Assembly (NCBI GenBank): GCA_024636835.1
Contig: JAGXGH010000086.1
Span: 1 to 64,000 of the forward strand
DNA from: Verrucomicrobiales bacterium
GTDB lineage: Bacteria > Verrucomicrobiota > Verrucomicrobiia > Verrucomicrobiales > SLCJ01
Length of the DNA: 64,000 nucleotides
Direction: 5' to 3'
Within the stretch, counting starts at the first letter, position 1. The number at the start of each line of letters is the position of its first letter. Below the pieces are notes generated by a model. That model did not search any database and had not been told where the DNA came from. It saw nothing but the letters and a program-made list of their open reading frames with translations. Positions 52,362 to 63,304 of the stretch are shown piece by piece. The translations under genes and the position numbers were made by a program.

Positions 52362-53870
52362 TCAGGATTTCACCACCAACTCTTGCAGTCGATAATACTC
52401 ATCACTCAGAGCAACCTCTTCATCTCCATCGAAGACCTGCTCAATCACGGCACCGGCTCGACCATCTTTTGCCTTAATCGTTACCCTTCCTGCCGCATCG
52501 TAGCCTAGCTCTACCTCGACAGGATAATTCTTCTCAGGTTCTGCAATCGGACCAAAGGTGAACTTGCCCAAGTTTTCCGCGACTTCGTATTCATCCTTAC
52601 GCTGCAGCACTTCGATCGACACGGTTTTCTGCTCTTTGCTTCTCGTGTAAAGAGTTTCTCTTGCTGTGGCTGGCACAGGCACGTTCTTTTCAATCAATGC
52701 ATGGAATACAGCCTTCTTTGCCTGAGGATCAAAAACCCTGACCCCCAGCTCATTACCGGTGACCAACTGTCGCAGTGGGGGCGCTGCCACTTGCTTATCA
52801 CCGTGCATCTGTTCCGCCAAGATCGCTGCACCATAGGCAACTGAGGCATGAGGTTGCTGCCTGCGCACACGAGTCTTTGGTAATCCGCTCATCTCACGAA
52901 CTTTTCGCTCCACGCAGGGAAGCAAACTACTCCCTCCGGTGAGCACCAGATCGTCGATATCATCCCAACCCATACCCGCCGCTTTCAGCGCCTTTTCACA
53001 AATCAACTCACTGGCTTCCAACCAAGGTTCCGCAGCCTCCTCAAACTGTGCACGGTTAAACGTCACGCGAATCTGCCGCCCGGCAAGAATCAAGGGCTTA
53101 CTAATGACTCCCCGACCTGGCTCGGATAGCTCAATTTTGGCACGCGTCGCAAAAGTTCTTAGCTTTTGCATCGCCTCGTTATCATCGCTAATTCCTACCC
53201 GGTGCTGACTACGGTATTGATCCTCAACAATACCCATGATCACTTCATCGAAGTTCTTCCCACCAATATTTTTCGCACCTTCAGTTGCCAACACATAAAG
53301 CCCATCCGGTGTTGCCTGGAGCACTGTCGCATCCAAGGTGCCACCGCCAATATCGAAAACGAAGATCGTTTTCTCGCCATGCTTTGCATCAAGACCGAAA
53401 TACGTTGCCGCAGCCACAGGCTCTTCTACGACGCCTAGCACGGGAAGATCCGCGAGCCGCCCTGCGTTTACCGTCGCTCGCCGCTCCGCTTCATTGAAAT
53501 GCGCCGGCACCGTGATCACCGCACCGGTGACCGCTTCCTGGCAAGCCGACTCTGCATCTGCTTTCAACTTTCGTAACACCAATGAGGAGATTGCCTCGGC
53601 AGAGTAGTCCCTCCCTTGGTGGTCGGTGAACACCGTCTTGTCCGTTCCCATGGAAAGTTTGGCAAATCGACAAATAGCTAGCCCCGCCTCCTCATCCAAC
53701 AACTGCTCCACCAAATCACCGACCAAGCATCCACGCTCGCCCACATGGACGACGGAAGCCGTCTGAAAGTTCTCGCTGTTGTCCAGATGCGGACACAACA
53801 CGGGAGTACCCGCACGGTTCACATACCCCACCAGCGAAAATGTCGTTCCAAGGTCTATTCCTATGATCAT
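52362..53870 (-). CDS. Hsp70-family chaperone (HscC-like)
   Basis: A 502-residue Hsp70. The nucleotide-binding domain is complete: GIDLGTTFSLVGYV, the phosphate loops with FVFDIGGGTLDATVLQ, and the adenosine motif LVLTGGSSLLPCVERKV. The substrate-binding domain is short and lacks the long lid of DnaK, as in HscC. It opens the J-like/PEGA cluster in reverse reading: it is the last gene of the run 63195-52362. The start is ATG 53870, since the earlier in-frame ATG at 53930 adds an unconserved leader. A partner J protein is expected and the two J-like membrane proteins are candidates, although they lack HPD. Confidence 0.9.
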   Translation of the reverse strand: MIIGIDLGTTFSLVGYVNRAGTPVLCPHLDNSENFQTASVVHVGERGCLVGDLVEQLLDEEAGLAICRFAKLSMGTDKTVFTDHQGRDYSAEAISSLVLRKLKADAESACQEAVTGAVITVPAHFNEAERRATVNAGRLADLPVLGVVEEPVAAATYFGLDAKHGEKTIFVFDIGGGTLDATVLQATPDGLYVLATEGAKNIGGKNFDEVIMGIVEDQYRSQHRVGISDDNEAMQKLRTFATRAKIELSEPGRGVISKPLILAGRQIRVTFNRAQFEEAAEPWLEASELICEKALKAAGMGWDDIDDLVLTGGSSLLPCVERKVREMSGLPKTRVRRQQPHASVAYGAAILAEQMHGDKQVAAPPLRQLVTGNELGVRVFDPQAKKAVFHALIEKNVPVPATARETLYTRSKEQKTVSIEVLQRKDEYEVAENLGKFTFGPIAEPEKNYPVEVELGYDAAGRVTIKAKDGRAGAVIEQVFDGDEEVALSDEYYRLQELVVKS

Positions 53871-53988
53871 CGTTTCGTGTTCAGTCTCGTCTACTCTCGA
53901 TTCTTTATTACCACCATCCAAGCATTTCAATCATGGACTCGTTATTGCTCATTACATTTATCTAAACTAGCAAGAGTCCATAAGTGAT

Positions 53989-56241
53989 CTAGTCGCCAGC
54001 GCCACAATCCAGCACACACCGAAAGCCTATCGTGCTCCATCGAGAATCGGGTATATGGAAGCTTCGTGTAGATGACCAATACCACCATTGCGCACTGCTA
54101 TACCAAGAACTGCCACGAACTACACGATCAGGACTTTCATCATTAAAAGTTTCCTCGCACCATTCGGCCACATTACCTCCCATGTCATACAATCCGTACT
54201 TATTTGCTTTATAACTTCCAACAGGAGCAACACGTGCATGCGCATCGACATGACCTTCAATCGGGTCTGACCACGACGGCCAGCTTCCACCCACTACTGC
54301 CTCACTACCCGCATAGTTACCATCGTCACTCTTCGGTGGCCAATAGTTTCCAAATGGATACTGGTCCTCAATTTCTGCATTTTTGCTCTTTATTGTAGCG
54401 CTAGCCTCCTCATTAAGGCCCACGGCGACGCTCCACTCGTGATCAAAAGACAACCGATACATCTGACCTTCGCGAATCTTTCCAAGCCCGAGTTCGCGGC
54501 TAGTTAGCCACTTGCAAAACGCCCTCGCATCAATCCAGCTGACTCCGCAAACTGCGTGATCGCCAGTTTGAGCATGACCTGGACTCTTCCAAGTTCGACC
54601 TACTTGATTTAGACCTTTCCGTCCATTCTTAATATCCAGTGAATACATACCGCCTGTCGCATCATAACCGGTCTCCTTGACGAAGGCTTCGAAGTCCTTC
54701 AGCCTAGTCTCATAAACACTGAACAATACCTTATCACCGCCAGCGGGCACAAACTTCATTCCTATTGTGTTAGTATAGGTGCCATCACCAGTGGGATAGG
54801 GAGTCTTCTCCAAGCTCACAAATTTACTGCCCACTTCATCAGCCTTCACCATTACGCGCACTTCCGATTTCTTGAACCTCTGCTTCCTCAAACTTAATAC
54901 GTGCTCGCCGGTTGGGACCACGGTCTCATATGGTGTCTTTCCTAACACCTCTCCCAAGCTATTAATCACATCAGCTCCCGCTGGATCACTGGTCAACTTT
55001 AGTGTCCCTTGCGAAAAGCGTGACGTAATCTCTTCTTTCTTATCTCTTTCCACCACCACTTTTTCATGGTAATCCGGCCAGCCGGAACGCTTCATCACCA
55101 CTTCGTATTCGCCCGTCGGCAAGTCCGCTTCCACTCCCGGTGTCTGCCCACTGCGTGGCTCGAATTCGCGATCGCTCTTCACATCACTGGTCACTTGTGA
55201 GAGAGAGTAACTCATCCCTTCAGGAGTGCTCTTTACCAGCACCGCACCTTCGCTGCGATTCAAACGCACCGGGCCCATCATCGTGGTGTCATCCTTACGC
55301 ACCACCGCCGTCTGGGTCACTGGATCGTAACCTTTCTTCTCGATCACCACCTCATATCTCCCCAGCTTCAAGTCCACGTAATTGGCTGGGCTCAATTCTT
55401 CACCCTTGCCACTCAATCTCACCGTTGCACCGCCTGGTTCAGTCTTCACCACCACCGCACCACGAGCCGTCGCCAATAGCGATTTTAGACTATCTCTTGC
55501 AGTTGATGCCTCGGAGTGATTTTCATCCAAATCCAAAACCTTCTCAAACCCTTCCAAGGCATTCTCCCACTCTTCCTGACTCTGCATCAAACGTGCGCTC
55601 GCCAATAAGCCATCGATCTTCCGCTGTCGATCTGCCAAGGCGCGCACATTATCAGCCTCAACTTTATCTAACGCTACTTTCACCCGCTTTTCGCCATCGA
55701 GTGCTTCTTTCCAAGTTGGTTTTAATGACAGCGCTTCCGCATACACCTCTGCCGCCTCACCCCAACTCTCGGACTCTTCATGCACCATCCCCTGCTGAAC
55801 CAACCTCGCTGCCATCTCGCGCTTAGGATTCTCTATCCCAAACCACCAGCCAGCTCCAGCACAGCACATCAGCAACACCAACACAACAGCGACCAGGATT
55901 TCTTTCCCGTGCCCACCGCTCTGAGCCACTTTTTTGCGTTTCGGTGGTGTCTTCTCATCAACGCCTGCCGCATCTACTATGCCAGCTGGACTTTCGACCT
56001 GCCCATCAAAATCCGGTCTCAAAGCCGGTAAATCCCCACCATCAGCCGCTAGTTCGATCACTTCAATCGCCTCTTCCATCCGAGTGATCGACTCGCGATA
56101 TTTCTGTGCTAATCCAGGAGTCGGAGCCCTCGCCAACTTCTCCTCCAACTTCCGACGCTGAGTAGAAAACGCCTCGTGGCGCAAGTGTTCATCAGCGCCG
56201 GGTTCCACTCCCAGCACCTTGTAAGCATCTTCTAAATTCAT
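53989..56241 (-). CDS. J-like / TPR / PEGA / FGE-fold membrane protein (copy B)
   Basis: 750 residues. 1-70: J-like helices (LEDAYKVLGVEPGADEHLRH) without the HPD motif. ~110-132: membrane helix (ILVAVVLVLLMCCAGAGWWF). ~140-240: TPR-like helices. ~255-480: three PEGA repeats (GAVVVKTEPGGATVRLSG, GAVLVKSTPEG, GTLKLTSDPAGADV). ~490-745: a formylglycine-generating-enzyme (SUMF1) fold with YTNTIGMKFVPAGGD and the end VVRGSSWYSSAQWWYWSSTR. The two catalytic cysteines of true FGE are absent near the end, so enzymatic formylglycine formation is unlikely, and a ligand-binding (C-type lectin-like) role fits better. The PEGA region is very similar to copy A at the DNA level, while the FGE end differs more and is lower in GC. 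Confidence 0.85.
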   Translation of the reverse strand: MNLEDAYKVLGVEPGADEHLRHEAFSTQRRKLEEKLARAPTPGLAQKYRESITRMEEAIEVIELAADGGDLPALRPDFDGQVESPAGIVDAAGVDEKTPPKRKKVAQSGGHGKEILVAVVLVLLMCCAGAGWWFGIENPKREMAARLVQQGMVHEESESWGEAAEVYAEALSLKPTWKEALDGEKRVKVALDKVEADNVRALADRQRKIDGLLASARLMQSQEEWENALEGFEKVLDLDENHSEASTARDSLKSLLATARGAVVVKTEPGGATVRLSGKGEELSPANYVDLKLGRYEVVIEKKGYDPVTQTAVVRKDDTTMMGPVRLNRSEGAVLVKSTPEGMSYSLSQVTSDVKSDREFEPRSGQTPGVEADLPTGEYEVVMKRSGWPDYHEKVVVERDKKEEITSRFSQGTLKLTSDPAGADVINSLGEVLGKTPYETVVPTGEHVLSLRKQRFKKSEVRVMVKADEVGSKFVSLEKTPYPTGDGTYTNTIGMKFVPAGGDKVLFSVYETRLKDFEAFVKETGYDATGGMYSLDIKNGRKGLNQVGRTWKSPGHAQTGDHAVCGVSWIDARAFCKWLTSRELGLGKIREGQMYRLSFDHEWSVAVGLNEEASATIKSKNAEIEDQYPFGNYWPPKSDDGNYAGSEAVVGGSWPSWSDPIEGHVDAHARVAPVGSYKANKYGLYDMGGNVAEWCEETFNDESPDRVVRGSSWYSSAQWWYWSSTRSFHIPDSRWSTIGFRCVLDCGAGD

Positions 56242-56267
56242 CATTTCTCGATTCGTCTCAACGTTGA

Positions 56268-58217
56268 TTATTTCTTGTTAAATCTCACCACCCAGTCGCG
56301 CAGCCACTTCTCAAGTGCCGTGCGGATCGCCGGCATCCTTCCTGCCACTCCCGATGCCTCACGACGTCTCTCATCCAACTGGCGCAACCGTTGCTCGATC
56401 GATTTCTCCTGATCTCTGCTCGCGCGGGTGCGCTTTTCCTGTTCGGCCTGAAGTAATGACTCCCTGGCCTGCACCTGATCGCCCAACTCACCGGCGAGAG
56501 TGCGCATCACCTTTTGCAAATATTGCCCGACTAAATTCTGCTGTTCGCGGAACAAATCGGCCACCACCCGCCGCAGTTCCCTACCCGTCGCGTCATGCAG
56601 TTTTTCCAATTCCTTTTCAATGGTGAGATTCTGCTGCTTGCGAATGCTCACATAAGTCCAGAAGAACCCGATGATCATCAGCGGCAACATCGCAGCGTAA
56701 AGATACGTCCGTAAATTCGTCTGCTCACCGAGCAATGTTCCGATCGCGCCGAAGACCATCCCCAACATCAGAATCCCGAAAATTCCTTGGCGAGCCTTAC
56801 CTAAACGAGAGCCAATACTCGGCTTCGGCATTTCGCCACGATAGCGAATTTCCGGTCTCGCCAATCCCGTCATCGAGCTCCAGAAAGCCTTTTCGTCCAA
56901 ACCCGGAAACGTTGGCTTAAATGCGATTCCAGCTTGTTCGGTCAACCGCTTCCTCAGCGACTCGCCAGCCAAATCCAGTGCTTCTTGGATCATCTTCAGA
57001 TCCTTGATCAGACGCTGTCGACAAAACGCCTCTACCTCACGGACCAAGCCATCCTGACACCCTTCATCGAGAGTCAACTTGATGACATTCCCACGGGCAT
57101 CCTGCAAAATATCCTCCGCATCAATTTCGCCAGCCAATTCGTCCATTCGTTGATACGCCCCACCGCCGGCCACCAGCAAACGCTTGCTCTCCTCCTCCAC
57201 ACTCCGACGCAATGCCTCCATTTCCTCCTGCAAGGTTTCTCTCACCTTATCGACCTCCCGTCTCAATTCCTTGTGCTGACCACTCCCCGTGATTAACCCG
57301 GATTGCTGGAGCTTCTTTTGATTCTGAAGATTAACGTCTGCCTGCTCCACCTCACCCTGCAACAACTCCACCCCGGCCTCCAGCTCCCGCTGACGCCGCG
57401 TTTCCTGGATAAACCGCCGCAACTCGCTCGACGGCTGAGTCAGTAATTCCAGACGAGCATCCACCACATCCGCTCCGCTGTTCATCCGCATCGGCGAGAG
57501 ACTACAAACCACCTTCCATCCCAGCCACCATCCTTTCGAAGGCAAGCCACCGGTTTCCTTGCCGTTTCCGACCAAACATTGCAAGCCGACCATTTGCTCC
57601 ATCAGAAGTTGCAGCGTATCGCGCTCCGCCTGGCCAAATTCCGCTTCCACTGGCCCACAGAGGAACAACCAATCCGCACCATCCGCCAGCACTGACAACA
57701 GTGCAGGTTTCTTCACCAGAGCCGACAAGCTTTCAGGGACCAGCAAGCGCAATCCGCGTCGACGCGATGGTGCCGGCAATTGCAAGCGCAAAGGATCCAT
57801 CCACGATGATGGGTTCCCCTCCTGCAACAGATCCTCGTCCTCCAGTGCAGCGACAAACGACTCCGCCTGATCGAACTCCTGCAGCGACTCTCCGGTATCG
57901 AGCGAAAACCCGCGCTCTTGCAACAAGATTTCGGTATAGCCGATTCGCGACGGCACGATAACCCGGCAGATATTATAATCATCTCCAACCAGTGCCGATA
58001 CCGCGGCAGCTGTCGACTCAGGAGTCAAGCCAACTAAAACCGCTCGCACTGGGTCGCTAAACAAAGGCTGACCCAAACGCTCAAACGCATCACACAGTGG
58101 AGTGATCGCCTGCCCAGCTTCCTGGGCTTGTGCCAAACGCCCGGCAATTTCCGCCGCTTCACCCAATTCGCGCCGCACGAGATTTTCATCGGCGGATGTG
58201 ATCGTCAAAGCTTCCAT
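56268..58217 (-). CDS. Membrane protein resembling dynamin with degenerate P-loop
   Basis: 649 residues. The N-terminal 260 residues have a G-domain look: VRAVLVGLTPESTAAAVSAL where a dynamin P-loop would be, but without the GKS/T, and later ADWLFLCGPVEAEFGQAERD like a switch/G4 region. A long coiled coil (~275-345, QKKLQQSGLITGSGQHKELRR) and then two membrane helices (~475-540, GIFGILMLGMVFGAIGTL and AAMLPLMIIGFFWTYVSI) follow, and another coiled coil (~545-640) ends it. This architecture matches bacterial dynamin-like proteins. Loss of the P-loop suggests a pseudo-GTPase, if the call holds. It is 26 bases from copy B and 63 from the coiled-coil gene. Confidence 0.55.
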   Translation of the reverse strand: MEALTITSADENLVRRELGEAAEIAGRLAQAQEAGQAITPLCDAFERLGQPLFSDPVRAVLVGLTPESTAAAVSALVGDDYNICRVIVPSRIGYTEILLQERGFSLDTGESLQEFDQAESFVAALEDEDLLQEGNPSSWMDPLRLQLPAPSRRRGLRLLVPESLSALVKKPALLSVLADGADWLFLCGPVEAEFGQAERDTLQLLMEQMVGLQCLVGNGKETGGLPSKGWWLGWKVVCSLSPMRMNSGADVVDARLELLTQPSSELRRFIQETRRQRELEAGVELLQGEVEQADVNLQNQKKLQQSGLITGSGQHKELRREVDKVRETLQEEMEALRRSVEEESKRLLVAGGGAYQRMDELAGEIDAEDILQDARGNVIKLTLDEGCQDGLVREVEAFCRQRLIKDLKMIQEALDLAGESLRKRLTEQAGIAFKPTFPGLDEKAFWSSMTGLARPEIRYRGEMPKPSIGSRLGKARQGIFGILMLGMVFGAIGTLLGEQTNLRTYLYAAMLPLMIIGFFWTYVSIRKQQNLTIEKELEKLHDATGRELRRVVADLFREQQNLVGQYLQKVMRTLAGELGDQVQARESLLQAEQEKRTRASRDQEKSIEQRLRQLDERRREASGVAGRMPAIRTALEKWLRDWVVRFNKK

Positions 58218-58280
58218 ACTCTCAGCATTTCCGTCAGCAAAAAAAGGTCAAGCCCGACGTGTCTAACAAACACTCAAAAA

Positions 58281-60386
58281 CTAGATATAGGGCGTGGACC
58301 GAGCCGCTTGAGCTGAAGAAATGGCGGCATCCGCTGCGGACTCCGCTTGGCGAGCTGCGGACTCTGCACGACTTGCTGCCGACTCTGCTTGCTGTGATGC
58401 AGTCTCTGCCTGACGCAAAAGACTCTCAATCTGACCCAAGGCCTGAGATGCGGTGTCGTGCATCTGTTGTATCTGCTCGGAGCCATTTCTCGCCTCACCG
58501 TGGAAGGTCTCGATCTGTTGATACAGGCCTCTCGACTCGCCCAGCACTCCGTTGATTTCCTCACGCAGCCCCTGAGCAGCACTCAGCACTTCAGCAACAC
58601 TCTGCTTCAAGCCCTCCGCTTCGTGGAGAGCGTCTTCGACTTTTGTCCGTCCGGTGGCTGCCGCTTCCGCATCGAGTTTAATTTGTTCGACCTTCTCCTG
58701 CCCCAGACTAACAATGGCACTCACCTTCTGTGCCAAGTCCACCTTCATGTCAGAAACATAAGAGATCGCATCGGCATGCGCCTGTTTGGCACCTGCAAGC
58801 TCGTGCTCTGCGGTGGTGGCTGCCGTTTCCGCATGGCTTTCTGAACGCTCCGCAGAGGTCTCGGCATGTTCCGCATCAGTCGCAGAGGACTTGGCCTCCG
58901 TAGATGATGCGAGAGATGCCGAAGCAGAAGACGCGGATTCCTGGGCGCTGGTTTGGGATTGCGATGCTGATGATGCCGCCTGGCTTGCCTCCGCTTGCGC
59001 ACGATCCGACGCCTGACTTGCCTCCTGCGCCTCCGCTTGCGCTCGACTCGATGCCTGCGTTGCCTCGTTTGCCTCCGCTTGCGCACGGTCAGAGGCCTGC
59101 GTCGCTTCCTGCGCTTCCGCTTGAGCGCGATCCGATGATTGGCTTGCCTCTTGGGCCTCGCGCTCGGCAGTGTCGCTCGCCTGCTCCGCTTTCGCCTGCG
59201 CTTGCTCGCTCAGATCTGCCGCAGCCGTTGCCCGTTGTTGTTGTTCCTCGCTGCTATCAGCGGCAGTCGTCGCCCGCGCCTGTTGTTCCTCACTCTGATC
59301 CGCTGCGGCCGTCGCCCGTTGTTGTTGTTCTTCACTAACATCAGCCGCCGCCGTGGCACGCTGTTGTTGTTCTTCCGAGACATCAGCCGCAGCTGTGGCT
59401 CGTGCCTGTTGTTCTTCGGAAACATCTGCTGCCGCCGTGGCTCGCTGTTGCTGCTCTTCGGAATGATCCGCAGCCGTCGTTGCGCGGGCCTGCTGTTCTT
59501 CACTGGTGTCCGCTGCCGTTGTCGCCCGTTGTTGCTGCTCCTCACTGGTATCCGCCGCTGTCGTCGCCCGGTGTTGTTCATCTTCCGCCGCACGGGCTGC
59601 CGTGTCCGCCGCCTTATGCTCATCCTCTGCCAAGCGTGCCGCCGTTTCAGCCTCGCCACGCGCCGCATCCGCCGCGCCAGCCGAATGTTCCGCATCGGCC
59701 CTCGATGAAGCTGCGGCGTCAGCCGAGGCATCCGCCTCACCCGCCGATTGATTCGCCGCCGTCGCACTGTGCCCGGCCTCACCCGCTGACTGCCCGGCGA
59801 TATCGGCACTGTGCCCCGCATCGGTGGCGCTCTGGCTCGTAGCCTCGCTGTCGGCATGCGCCTGATCCCGGAAATGTCCCGACTCCGCAGCCGCCGACTC
59901 CGCCTGATGGGAGGATTGCTCAGCCTCTGATGACGCCGACTCCGCCACACGTGCCGCGACTCCCGCCGAAGCAGAAAATCCCTCGGCCTCAGTTTGAGCG
60001 GCATCGGCACTAGCCGAACTCTCCTGCGCTTGAGCTGCAGCACCTTGGGCTTCTGTCGCAGATCCCTGAGCTTCCGTTGCCGACGCCTCTGCTTGATGTG
60101 CCGCCCCGCTTGCCTCACCCACCGAAGCCTGCGCTTGGGCCGCAGCATCCGAGGCATCGTCGGCAGACGCTCTGGCTTCACCCGCAGACGCCGAAGCCTC
60201 ACCGGCGGAAGCGTCTGTCGCACTTGCTTGCGCGGCTGCTTCGCCGGCACTCATCTTTGCGTCCTCGCTCGCTGCAGCGGCTTCATCAGCGGATTGCTGG
60301 GCTAGACGAGCCGATCCTGCTGCCTCCTCGGCAGCAAGTTGATCGTCAGTTAAGGATGGTGGCGGTGTGGTATCATCGGCTGGCAT
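58281..60386 (-). CDS. Extreme Ala/Glu/Gln/Ser coiled-coil protein
   Basis: 701 residues, nearly all helical repeats. The N-terminal half is built of SA(G/D)EA-type short repeats. Then about nine 14-residue units of the form SEEQQQRATAAADV, then about five of the form DRAQAEAQEATQAS, and a C-terminal region with NGSEQIQQMHDTASQAL. Fourteen residues are two heptads, so a long uninterrupted rod of >60 nm is expected. There is no cysteine, no signal peptide and no membrane helix. The same stretch gives long frames on the other strand, but they are shadows. It is probably a cytoplasmic or tethering rod working with its neighbours. Confidence 0.8.
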   Translation of the reverse strand: MPADDTTPPPSLTDDQLAAEEAAGSARLAQQSADEAAAASEDAKMSAGEAAAQASATDASAGEASASAGEARASADDASDAAAQAQASVGEASGAAHQAEASATEAQGSATEAQGAAAQAQESSASADAAQTEAEGFSASAGVAARVAESASSEAEQSSHQAESAAAESGHFRDQAHADSEATSQSATDAGHSADIAGQSAGEAGHSATAANQSAGEADASADAAASSRADAEHSAGAADAARGEAETAARLAEDEHKAADTAARAAEDEQHRATTAADTSEEQQQRATTAADTSEEQQARATTAADHSEEQQQRATAAADVSEEQQARATAAADVSEEQQQRATAAADVSEEQQQRATAAADQSEEQQARATTAADSSEEQQQRATAAADLSEQAQAKAEQASDTAEREAQEASQSSDRAQAEAQEATQASDRAQAEANEATQASSRAQAEAQEASQASDRAQAEASQAASSASQSQTSAQESASSASASLASSTEAKSSATDAEHAETSAERSESHAETAATTAEHELAGAKQAHADAISYVSDMKVDLAQKVSAIVSLGQEKVEQIKLDAEAAATGRTKVEDALHEAEGLKQSVAEVLSAAQGLREEINGVLGESRGLYQQIETFHGEARNGSEQIQQMHDTASQALGQIESLLRQAETASQQAESAASRAESAARQAESAADAAISSAQAARSTPYI
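59210..59600. repeat. 42-bp tandem repeats inside the coiled-coil gene
   Basis: About nine in-frame 42-base units (CGTGCCTGTTGTTCTTC-like on the plus strand) coding the SEEQQ-x-RAT-x-AAD segments. Copies differ at a few bases and so the array can change length by slippage without frame loss. Followed at 58970-59190 by a second family of 42-base units coding DRAQAEAQEA-x-QAS. Confidence 0.8.
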
Positions 60387-60714
60387 AGGACTCTTGTGTT
60401 AGTAGTTTTTGCTTAAATGATCAAAAAACATAACCTTGTTACCCTAAATGACCTGCTCGGTCACGGTTAAAAGCCGTTTAATTACACAAAACAGCAGCAG
60501 ATCTCACGCCAAAGCAGCATCCAATCGCCTGCGTTGAGCGATATCGAGCGCTCCAGAACTTTCACCTCGCGCTCATAATGGCACCGCCGCAAGCCCATTG
60601 ACCATTGGCACTTGACCAATGACAGCACCGGAAGATCCAACTCCCGACCTGCCATAGACTCCCAAGCCACCATCAATTTCCCGCACAATCCCTTAGACCA
60701 CCCACCGGTGCCCC
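60387..60714. other. 328-base spacer between coiled-coil gene and copy A
   Basis: I see no supported gene. The frame 60482-60745 on the minus strand has odd composition (many Trp and Cys) and no family. The AT-rich part (60405-60485) before the coiled-coil start could be its promoter. I searched this gap for a template repeat matching the end of copy A and did not see one. Confidence 0.5.
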
Positions 60715-63195
60715 CTAGCCCCCACCACCGCACACCAATACACACCGAAAGCCGCGGTTACTGCCGCGGTAATCGGGGATAGTGCGATGGCGGAGGGAAG
60801 ACAAGAACCAGTGCTGATCGTGGTAATCCCAGCCACCCCCGCGCAGCACGCGGCGTTTCCGATCACCACTAAACCAGTCCTCGCACCACTCCAACACATT
60901 ACCCCCCATGTCATGTAGTCCGTATTTGTTTGCCTTGTAGCTTCCCACAGGCGCCACCCTGGCATGGGCATCACGATGTCCGGAAATTAGTGTCCAATTC
61001 CACGGCCAACTTCCCACTTTCGCCTCACTTCCCGCATAGTTCCCATCGTCACTTTTCGGCGGATAGTTGTTCCCCCACGGATACACACCTGCGATCTCTT
61101 GATCTTTGCTTTTCGGCGTGCCGGAGGCGCTCTCGTTTAACCCTACTGCCACACTCCACTCGTGATCGGATGGTAAGCGGTATTCTTGATCACTGCGAAT
61201 ACGCCCCGCTTTGCGCTCACGCTCGGTCAGCCATTTGCAAAATGCCTTCGCATCGTTCCAACTCACTCCGCACAAGGCGTAATCTGGCCCCTGGGCATGT
61301 CCCGGACTCTTCCATGTCCGGCCCACTTGCACGAAACCCGCCTCATATCCCTCTTTGTGATCAAGGGAATACATCCCACTCGTCGCATCATACCCCGTCT
61401 CCTTCACAAACGTCTCAAAGTCCTTCACCCGCGTCTCGTAAACACTGAACAATACGCCATTACTCCCGGCTGGCACGAACTTCATTCCGAGGTCGTTGGT
61501 ATAAGGCTTTCCTGCCAGTGGATAGGGAATTTTCTTTAACACGGGACTGGCCGTCGCCGTCTTTCCTTTCATCACCTCCACACGCAGCTCGGCGACCTCA
61601 TACCCCTGCTTCTCCACCTCAATCACATGCACACCAGTCGGCACTTCAACTTCCAGCGGAGTCACTCCCAGTTCCTTCCCTCCCACACCACGCACCATGG
61701 CACCAGCAGGCTCGCTCACCACTTTCATCCGTCCTTGCGAAAACTCCCACACACCTTTCCCTGTTTTCCCGTTCGCCACTTCTACCTGCGTCTTCCCATC
61801 TGGCCAGCCCTCGCGCTTAAACACCACTTCATAAGTCCCGACAGGCTGTTCATCCAAACTCAGCGGTGTCTTGCCTAACAGCTTCTCACCTCCACCAACA
61901 ACCTGGTAAACCGACATCCCCGAAGGCACACTGACCAGCTCCAAGGTTCCCTGACCGAACTCCCAATCCACCTCTTCTTTGAGGTCACGCGCCACCGTCA
62001 GTCGACGTTTGTAATCCGGCCAACTGGAACGCTTCATCACCACCTCGTATTCGCCCGTTGGTAAGTCCGCCTCCACTCCGGGTGTCCGCCCGCTGCGCGG
62101 CTCGAACTCGCGATCACTCTTCACATCGCTGGACACCTGCGTGAGTTCGTAGCTCATCCCCTCAGGCGTGCTTTTCACCAAGACCGCGCCTTCGCTGCGG
62201 TTCAAACGCAGCGGCCCCATTACCGTGGTGTCATCTTTACGCACCACCGCCGTCTGCGTCACGGGGTCGTAACCTTTCTTCTCTATCACCACCTCATACC
62301 TTCCCAGCTTCAAGTCCACGTAATTGGCAGGGCTCAGCTCTTCGCCTTTACCACTCAAGCGTATCGTCGCACCACCGGGTTCGGTTTTGACCACCACCGC
62401 ACCTCTCGCATTAGTCAGCAACTTCTCCAACCTCGCCACTGCTTCATTGGCTTCGACATTGTCTGCATCCAGAGACGCGGCTTTGCCATACAACTCGAAG
62501 GCCTCACCCCACTCATCCTGACCTTGCGCGATGCGCGCCTGCACTAGCAAACGTTCGACTTCACGATCTCGCTCTGCCAAAGCGCGGGCATTTTCTGCCT
62601 CAATTTTCTCCAGCGCTGTCTTCACCCGCTTTTCGCCATCGAGTGCTTCTTTCCAGCTCGGTTTTAACGACAAGGCTTCCGCATAAACCTCGGCCGCCTC
62701 GTCCCAACTCTCGGACTTTTCGTGCACCATACCTTGCTGAACTAAACGCGCTGCCATCTCACGCTTGGGATTCTCCATCCCAAACCACCAGCCAGCTCCC
62801 GCTCCACACATCAGCAACACCAATACAATAGCGACAAGAATCTCTTTTCCATTCCTCGAGCCAGGCGATTTCGAACGGCTTGCGCTCGCTCGCTTCGACG
62901 TAGCTACCGCATCCTTGTCTTCTTCGGATGGTGATGGTTGGGGATCGCTCTCGACAGAACCGAAATCAGGACGGAGCATCGGGAGTTCACCGCCATCCGC
63001 CGCCAGTTCGATCGTTTCAATCGCCTCATCGAGCTTTGTTAGAGTATCCCTATATTTCGCCTTCAGACCAGGCGTTGGAGCCTTTGCCAGCTTTTCCTCA
63101 AGCCGCCCTTGAAGACGCCGATACGCCTCATGGCGCTCCACTTCATCAGCCCCCTCGGAAACCCCGAGCATTGCATAAGCATCCTTCAAATTCAT
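60715..63195 (-). CDS. J-like / TPR / PEGA / FGE-fold membrane protein (copy A)
   Basis: 826 residues, paralogue of 53989-56241. 1-75: J-like helices (MNLKDAYAMLGVSEGADEVE) without HPD. ~128-150: membrane helix (ILVAIVLVLLMCGAGAGWWF). ~160-260: TPR-like. ~275-560: four PEGA repeats, one more than copy B (extra units GTLELVSVPSGMSVYQ and GRMKVVSEPAGAMV). ~570-822: SUMF1-type fold, with WNDAKAFCKWLTERER, PWGNNYPPKSDDGNYAGSEA, DMGGNVLEWCEDWFSG and the last segment VLRGGGWDYHDQHWFLSSLR then GFRCV. The catalytic cysteines of FGE are missing. The last 40 residues show D, Y, H, R, G, N where such proteins in diversity-generating retroelements have Asn in the template. Start at 63195, the same Met as copy B. 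Confidence 0.85.
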   Translation of the reverse strand: MNLKDAYAMLGVSEGADEVERHEAYRRLQGRLEEKLAKAPTPGLKAKYRDTLTKLDEAIETIELAADGGELPMLRPDFGSVESDPQPSPSEEDKDAVATSKRASASRSKSPGSRNGKEILVAIVLVLLMCGAGAGWWFGMENPKREMAARLVQQGMVHEKSESWDEAAEVYAEALSLKPSWKEALDGEKRVKTALEKIEAENARALAERDREVERLLVQARIAQGQDEWGEAFELYGKAASLDADNVEANEAVARLEKLLTNARGAVVVKTEPGGATIRLSGKGEELSPANYVDLKLGRYEVVIEKKGYDPVTQTAVVRKDDTTVMGPLRLNRSEGAVLVKSTPEGMSYELTQVSSDVKSDREFEPRSGRTPGVEADLPTGEYEVVMKRSSWPDYKRRLTVARDLKEEVDWEFGQGTLELVSVPSGMSVYQVVGGGEKLLGKTPLSLDEQPVGTYEVVFKREGWPDGKTQVEVANGKTGKGVWEFSQGRMKVVSEPAGAMVRGVGGKELGVTPLEVEVPTGVHVIEVEKQGYEVAELRVEVMKGKTATASPVLKKIPYPLAGKPYTNDLGMKFVPAGSNGVLFSVYETRVKDFETFVKETGYDATSGMYSLDHKEGYEAGFVQVGRTWKSPGHAQGPDYALCGVSWNDAKAFCKWLTERERKAGRIRSDQEYRLPSDHEWSVAVGLNESASGTPKSKDQEIAGVYPWGNNYPPKSDDGNYAGSEAKVGSWPWNWTLISGHRDAHARVAPVGSYKANKYGLHDMGGNVLEWCEDWFSGDRKRRVLRGGGWDYHDQHWFLSSLRHRTIPDYRGSNRGFRCVLVCGGGG

Positions 63196-63304
63196 CACCC
63201 GAAAATCAAGCGGCAATCAAAAGCACATAGCAACTCAAAAAGTCTTGAATCTCGCTCTCGCCCTAAGCCGAGCTTTGAGGTTGATCGGACAACTTCCAAA
63301 AACA

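Follow-up and report, generated by a model that had tools for sequence, protein, structure and literature searches.

A stretch of 64,000 nucleotides from a Verrucomicrobiales bacterium (positions 1 to 64,000 of contig JAGXGH010000086.1, our C143, in a 5.5 Mb draft genome; hereafter the window) carries five minus-strand genes that form a conserved locus, recurring in another family, the Opitutaceae. They encode two membrane receptors with a J-like N-terminal module, a coiled-coil rod, a protein that resembles a dynamin without a P-loop (the pseudo-dynamin) and an Hsp70. The J-like module is a true J-domain homologue that lacks the HPD motif, and the Hsp70 belongs to a distinct subfamily in which residues of the surface on which HPD acts have been replaced.

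Conservation of the locus

Relatives of the pseudo-dynamin were sought in 93 genomes from the same order, in a sample of 388 genomes of the phylum and in 250 Opitutaceae genomes. No relative of the pseudo-dynamin was found among the order relatives, and the phylum sample held one, 38% identical, in the Opitutaceae genome G338. In that genome the pseudo-dynamin gene is followed by genes for a 708-aa rod with a 14-residue period and for seven tandem receptors, each with a J-like module and a transmembrane (TM) segment, and by a convergent Hsp70 gene. A scan of named genomes with an alignment of the two pseudo-dynamin sequences returned one locus, on JAUXOH010000055.1 (Candidatus Didemnitutus). 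In G592, the Candidatus Didemnitutus genome of the Opitutaceae, the set is spread over three contigs, the presumed order of which is pseudo-dynamin, rod and receptors on one, more receptors on another, and a receptor with a convergent Hsp70 on the last, with at least five tandem J-like/TM receptors. In G607, a genome only 73% complete, a receptor cut by the contig end adjoins a convergent Hsp70 of the same subfamily, and the Opitutaceae search gave no pseudo-dynamin match.

The pseudo-dynamin and the Hsp70 subfamily were both found in the same 2 of the 388 genomes and in no others; with at most three Hsp70 candidates scored per genome, members of the subfamily were 64% identical and the next best candidate 39%. 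Among the 250 Opitutaceae the pseudo-dynamin was confined to G338 and G592 (weak matches in G596, where it lies within a peptidase-like gene, and in G634 were taken as chance). J-like receptor matches numbered eight in G338, six in G592 and one in each of 21 other genomes; several receptors per genome were thus seen only where the pseudo-dynamin is present. Conversely, neither the pseudo-dynamin nor the Hsp70 subfamily was seen without receptors. The receptor family is wider than the system, since solo members exist: those examined carry a TonB-like, FGE or beta-helix-like domain at the end (the first and last of these being judged by eye), and neither a system Hsp70 nor a pseudo-dynamin was found near them. 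The first-pass annotation, made from the window sequence, had proposed that the five genes belong together, which the conserved neighbourhood in another family and the shared restriction of pseudo-dynamin and Hsp70 bear out. Its expectation that the families co-occur rather than live apart held for these two proteins, but in part failed for the receptors, which are also found alone.

Two further observations concern these families. A second pseudo-dynamin, cut by a contig end, is present in G592 (L072:3904-4530), and this genome may therefore carry two copies of the locus. Akkermansiaceae-like genomes have a single J-like/TM/TPR protein with a beta-helix-like end (L052:8025-10172, L055:8032-10113, L059:7741-10101, L064:9193-11241), several of which adjoin a purC-like or nadE-like gene.

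In the window the genes are transcribed in the order receptor A, rod, pseudo-dynamin, receptor B, Hsp70, with intergenic gaps of 328, 63, 23 and 58-118 bp. Features are as follows, all on the minus strand.

60715..63216, minus: receptor A (FGE-A), 833 aa, with J-like module, one TM helix, TPR-like stalk, four PEGA repeats and an FGE-fold end domain
62998..63195, minus: J-like module of receptor A, residues 1-66 from the ATG at 63195, HPD absent (J-domain profile, AlphaFold2, Foldseek)
62785..62841, minus: TM helix of receptor A, residues 119-137 from the ATG (hydropathy)
61531..62403, minus: PEGA repeats of receptor A, approximate span (Pfam PF08308, four stretches)
60739..61428, minus: FGE-fold domain of receptor A, no Cys at the position of the SUMF1 catalytic pair (Pfam PF03781, 1.8e-33, and sequence)
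58281..60386, minus: Ala-rich coiled-coil rod, 701 aa, 14-residue repeat (counterparts in G338 and G592)
56268..58217, minus: pseudo-dynamin, 649 aa, two TM helices near the C-terminal third (hydropathy; relatives elsewhere)
57567..58103, minus: putative pseudo-GTPase region of the pseudo-dynamin, about residues 39-217 (hhalign against verrucomicrobial dynamin-like proteins)
56643..56786, minus: two TM helices of the pseudo-dynamin, residues 478-525 (hydropathy)
53989..56244, minus: receptor B (FGE-B), 751 aa, with J-like module, one TM helix, TPR-like stalk, three PEGA repeats and an FGE-fold end domain
55843..55899, minus: TM helix of receptor B, residues 115-133 from the ATG at 56241 (hydropathy)
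52362..53930, minus: lidless Hsp70 of a distinct subfamily, 522 aa (64% identity to the G338 and G592 proteins)

Receptor A may start at a TTG (833 aa) or at the ATG at 63195 (826 aa), and the probable, conserved start of the Hsp70 is the ATG at 53870, giving 502 aa. All five minus-strand genes of the first-pass annotation are present, and the last one matches PF00012, as its assignment to Hsp70 implies. No credible Pfam family was found for the rod or the two-TM protein, an NCBIfam scan of the locus gave sub-cut-off matches only, and promoter and terminator scans stayed near chance level.

The J-like module and the system Hsp70

A profile of ten J-like modules matched true J domains with a probability of 97.1% (E 6.5e-11) and a score of 57, compared with scores of 17 or less and probabilities of 3% or less in 50 column shuffles. 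The same profile matched J domains in the PDB, those of Sec63 (E 4e-4) and DnaJ. AlphaFold2 modelled the receptor A module as three helices, with a block predicted local distance difference test (pLDDT) score of 93-97 over residues 1-60, and the best Foldseek matches of this model were DnaJ J domains, all with E above 0.1. In all modules aligned, HPD gives way to E, a one-residue deletion, and then E or D. The module is a J-domain homologue without HPD, as had been read from the window alone.

For a J protein to act on Hsp70, both HPD and its arginine on the Hsp70 side are considered indispensable. All seven catalytic residues tested (D8, T11, K70, E171, D194, T199 and D201) are conserved in the four system Hsp70s, but R167 is changed to G, N170 to E, and T173 to V or L. 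In the three compared over the remaining length, D393 is L or Q and D481 is A or T, and the alpha lid of the substrate-binding domain (SBD) is absent, the proteins ending shortly after SBD-beta. The HPD aspartate acts on a network made up of R167, D393 and D481 (PMC7289447), and lost residues are tied to J-domain action in two further studies (PMC13012618 and PMC8215388). Both halves of the canonical contact, HPD on one side and the R167 network on the other, are thus lost. Ordinary J-domain stimulation is not expected from a module without HPD and an Hsp70 subfamily without R167, and the earlier suggestion of a membrane-bound chaperone system, with a J-like part facing the Hsp70, finds no support in that form. 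The joint loss would fit either a rewired contact or no contact.

Membrane J proteins that work with a DnaK-type Hsp70, such as DjlA and Sec63, share J-domain homology and membrane anchoring with the receptors; here, in contrast, HPD is absent, the neighbouring Hsp70 lacks R167 and the lid, and paralogues are numerous and differ in their end domains. Proteins of the Pam16 type likewise have a J fold without HPD. Pam16 works on a canonical Hsp70 in a pair with a J protein that has HPD, whereas no HPD-bearing partner was seen in the present locus.

Other Hsp70 clusters were also encountered. A paralogue in the same genome (C127; L002:7674-11135) keeps R167, N170 and T173 and belongs to a different cluster, its neighbours being a 131-aa protein and an FHA protein that matches GrpE weakly. 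Other lidless Hsp70 genes, with R167 changed to Q, lie beside an FGE-domain gene (L115:8430-12408, L116:1830-5048, L117:7465-11560, L118:8294-12462; FGE by Pfam in L115), with a GrpE-like gene in L115, L117 and L118 (Pfam GrpE in L115). Whether the FGE protein of these GrpE-Hsp70-FGE operons begins with a J-like part could not be confirmed (profile probability 6%).

Receptor end domains, pseudo-dynamin and rod

Pfam found FGE (PF03781) in both window receptors, with four PEGA stretches in A and three in B and weak TPR matches after the TM helix; with one TM helix each, they fit their earlier description as two paralogous single-pass membrane proteins with four or three PEGA repeats. The description of their ends as a cysteine-less SUMF1 fold was right about the fold but too broad about the cysteines, which do occur in the domains, though none lies between RGG and GFRC. 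We take the SUMF1 catalytic Cys pair to lie in the stretch after RGG. By sequence, then, these domains belong to the FGE fold family and would lack the catalytic cysteine pair. Their closest PDB sequence match was PorK/GldK, which like some other envelope proteins has the FGE fold, but here the domain sits on a J-like/PEGA membrane receptor and no type 9 secretion context was seen.

The twin receptors of the window are one end of a range; seven receptors, with outer domains that differ, make up the G338 array. Within that array the J-like module is 76% and the TM segment 73% identical, compared with 19% for the last 150 residues. PEGA was detected by Pfam in all seven (in one of them without any single significant stretch). 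Among the receptor end domains recognised by Pfam are FGE, PDZ plus FGE, Sel1, DUF2846 and DnaJ-type cysteine-rich repeats, the matches to the last two being below curated cut-offs. A constant J-like/TM part with variable C-termini is what a common connector on the inside, joined to outer sensors or binders of different kinds, would be expected to show.

CxxCxGxG repeats of the DnaJ type end three receptors, behind the TM segment and PEGA (L076:2237-3877, L077:2-1747, L139:3-1640). The genes of the twin receptors (53989-56244 and 60715-63216) share DNA tracts of 80-90% identity, covering TM/stalk and first PEGA repeats, and are much less alike between these tracts, a mosaic that looks as after duplication with gene conversion. 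Diversification of the FGE C-termini as variable proteins of a diversity-generating retroelement (DGR) was considered and rejected: there is no template copy of the receptor A 3' end, and no DGR-type reverse transcriptase was recognised among the three in the genome, two of which have QGxPLSP as in group II introns and the third no GxxxS[PQ] motif.

The pseudo-dynamin aligned collinearly with verrucomicrobial dynamin-like proteins over 169 columns (hhalign probability 70.7%, score 45). The N-terminal part alone gave a probability of 26.6% and a score of 33, compared with at most 21.5 in 50 shuffles, for which this part was used; single subgroups of dynamin-like proteins mostly gave no match. 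The P-loop GxxxxGK[ST] is absent, the aligned position reading GLTPESTA, and no dynamin GTPase match was found with Pfam. An AlphaFold2 model of the protein was too poor to use (mean pLDDT 43.7). The dynamin look without P-loop reported in the first-pass annotation draws its support from profile-profile comparison. Bacterial dynamin-like proteins (e.g. Cj-DLP1/2, PMC6104087) are alike in the apparent order of GTPase-like elements (by profile), helical part and C-terminal membrane segment; they differ in having a P-loop and paired genes, where the present gene is single and stands in an Hsp70/receptor context. In the window rod, identity at a lag of 14 residues was 0.466, with a shuffled maximum of 0.197, in line with the 14-residue repeat first noticed; the rods compared gave 0.44-0.55, and their shuffles at most about 0.20.

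Interpretation and alternatives

On the strength of the recurring neighbourhood, the joint distribution of pseudo-dynamin and Hsp70 subfamily, the J-domain homology, the Hsp70 residues kept and lost, the constant J-like/TM part with variable C-termini in the G338 array and the DnaJ-type cysteine repeats of some receptors, we propose, at somewhat short of even confidence, that the locus encodes an array of membrane receptors that dock to a non-canonical Hsp70 of their own and are scaffolded by the pseudo-dynamin and the rod. In each receptor an HPD-less J-like module that does not vary, most likely cytosolic, would be followed by one TM helix and, on what is most likely the periplasmic side, by a stalk (coiled coil or TPR), by PEGA sandwiches and by an end domain that varies and may bind an envelope or outside ligand. 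The J-like modules would dock the lidless Hsp70, whose J-contact surface would have altered alongside the loss of HPD; instead of serving protein folding in general, this Hsp70 may use ATP to clamp the receptor tails or a partner that they share. The receptors would be gathered by a scaffold common to them all and attached to the membrane, made up of the Ala-rich rod and the pseudo-dynamin with its two TM helices. These points on topology, docking, clamping, scaffolding and ligand binding are inferred. More tentatively, the Hsp70 and the J-derived receptors may have co-evolved off the HPD/R167 contact, leaving the Hsp70 as a signalling clamp that reads variable envelope receptors on a pseudo-dynamin/coiled-coil scaffold. 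The purpose of the system could be envelope organisation or defence. Of the membrane-bound chaperone system suggested at first, the common locus and a J-like end that is most likely cytosolic are retained, and ordinary J-domain stimulation is not expected; nothing specific speaks for tension sensing.

Several observations weigh against the docked array. Positive residues outnumber negative ones before the TM helix and also after it; topology is accordingly uncertain, and inward N-termini are likely rather than shown, although the J-like end most likely faces the cytosol, as the first reading had it. DnaJ-type cysteine repeats are odd in a supposed periplasm. J-like membrane proteins also occur alone, without this Hsp70, and loss of the contact on both sides would also suit a J-like module and an Hsp70 that do not bind at all. 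The relation of the pseudo-dynamin to dynamins, finally, comes from profile comparison alone.

It is also possible, although we think it unlikely, that the J-like module is an oligomerisation or adaptor domain holding the receptors to the pseudo-dynamin or the rod, while the Hsp70 serves another step (e.g. assembly of the rod or pseudo-dynamin) without contact. The absence of both HPD and R167, and the solo receptors that live without this Hsp70, would be accounted for in this way; an Hsp70 subfamily seen only beside these receptors would not, nor would the second Hsp40 feature, the DnaJ-type cysteine-rich repeats, in three of them. A conflict or immunity system resembling the GTPase- and chaperone-centred ones of Kaur et al. 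(2020), in which the variable receptor ends sense an invader at the envelope and Hsp70, pseudo-dynamin and rod form the switch and effector superstructure, is a little less probable again. Its very sparse distribution (2 of 388 genomes), variable tandem components and a theme published there, which combines a GTPase, an Hsp70 and GrpE with repeats fused to DnaJ near the membrane and includes PEGA, PDZ and FGS domains, recommend it, but a known defence system was rejected, with no PADLOC match, and neither GrpE nor a recognisable toxic or pore-forming effector is present, nor were defence genes seen beside the loci. That unrelated neighbours were joined by chance in one draft genome is very improbable: absence of the pseudo-dynamin from the 93 order relatives would agree with it, but the same families share a neighbourhood in Opitutaceae, albeit with a pseudo-dynamin only 38% identical, and we take the recurring loci to rule it out.

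Among published compositions, the receptor/Hsp70 locus comes nearest to the Hsp70/GrpE/DnaJ-FNIII theme that Kaur et al. (2020, PMC7159879) describe for DO-GTPase/GAP1-N2 systems. The two are alike in an NTPase-like component, an Hsp70, a J domain fused to repeats, TM segments, PEGA/PDZ/FGS-type domains and variable linked genes. In contrast, DO-GTPase, GAP1, FNIII and GrpE are missing here, the GTPase-like part is a putative P-loop-less dynamin relative, the J module lacks HPD, and a coiled-coil rod and a receptor array are added. Pfam, in a library that presumably includes models of DO-GTPase and GAP1, matched neither in the locus proteins up to E-values of 1-10. The locus therefore resembles systems of this kind in layout and is not a member, since the core components were not found. 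No description of this composition, of IniB with Hsp70 or of HPD-less bacterial J proteins was found in open-licence papers, in keeping with the initial statement that no described system so composed was known. A locus missing HPD and R167 together would be a natural double mutant for studying how J proteins and Hsp70 talk to each other, and it would give the Verrucomicrobia, a group of poorly known envelope biology, an array of membrane receptors whose outer domains vary.

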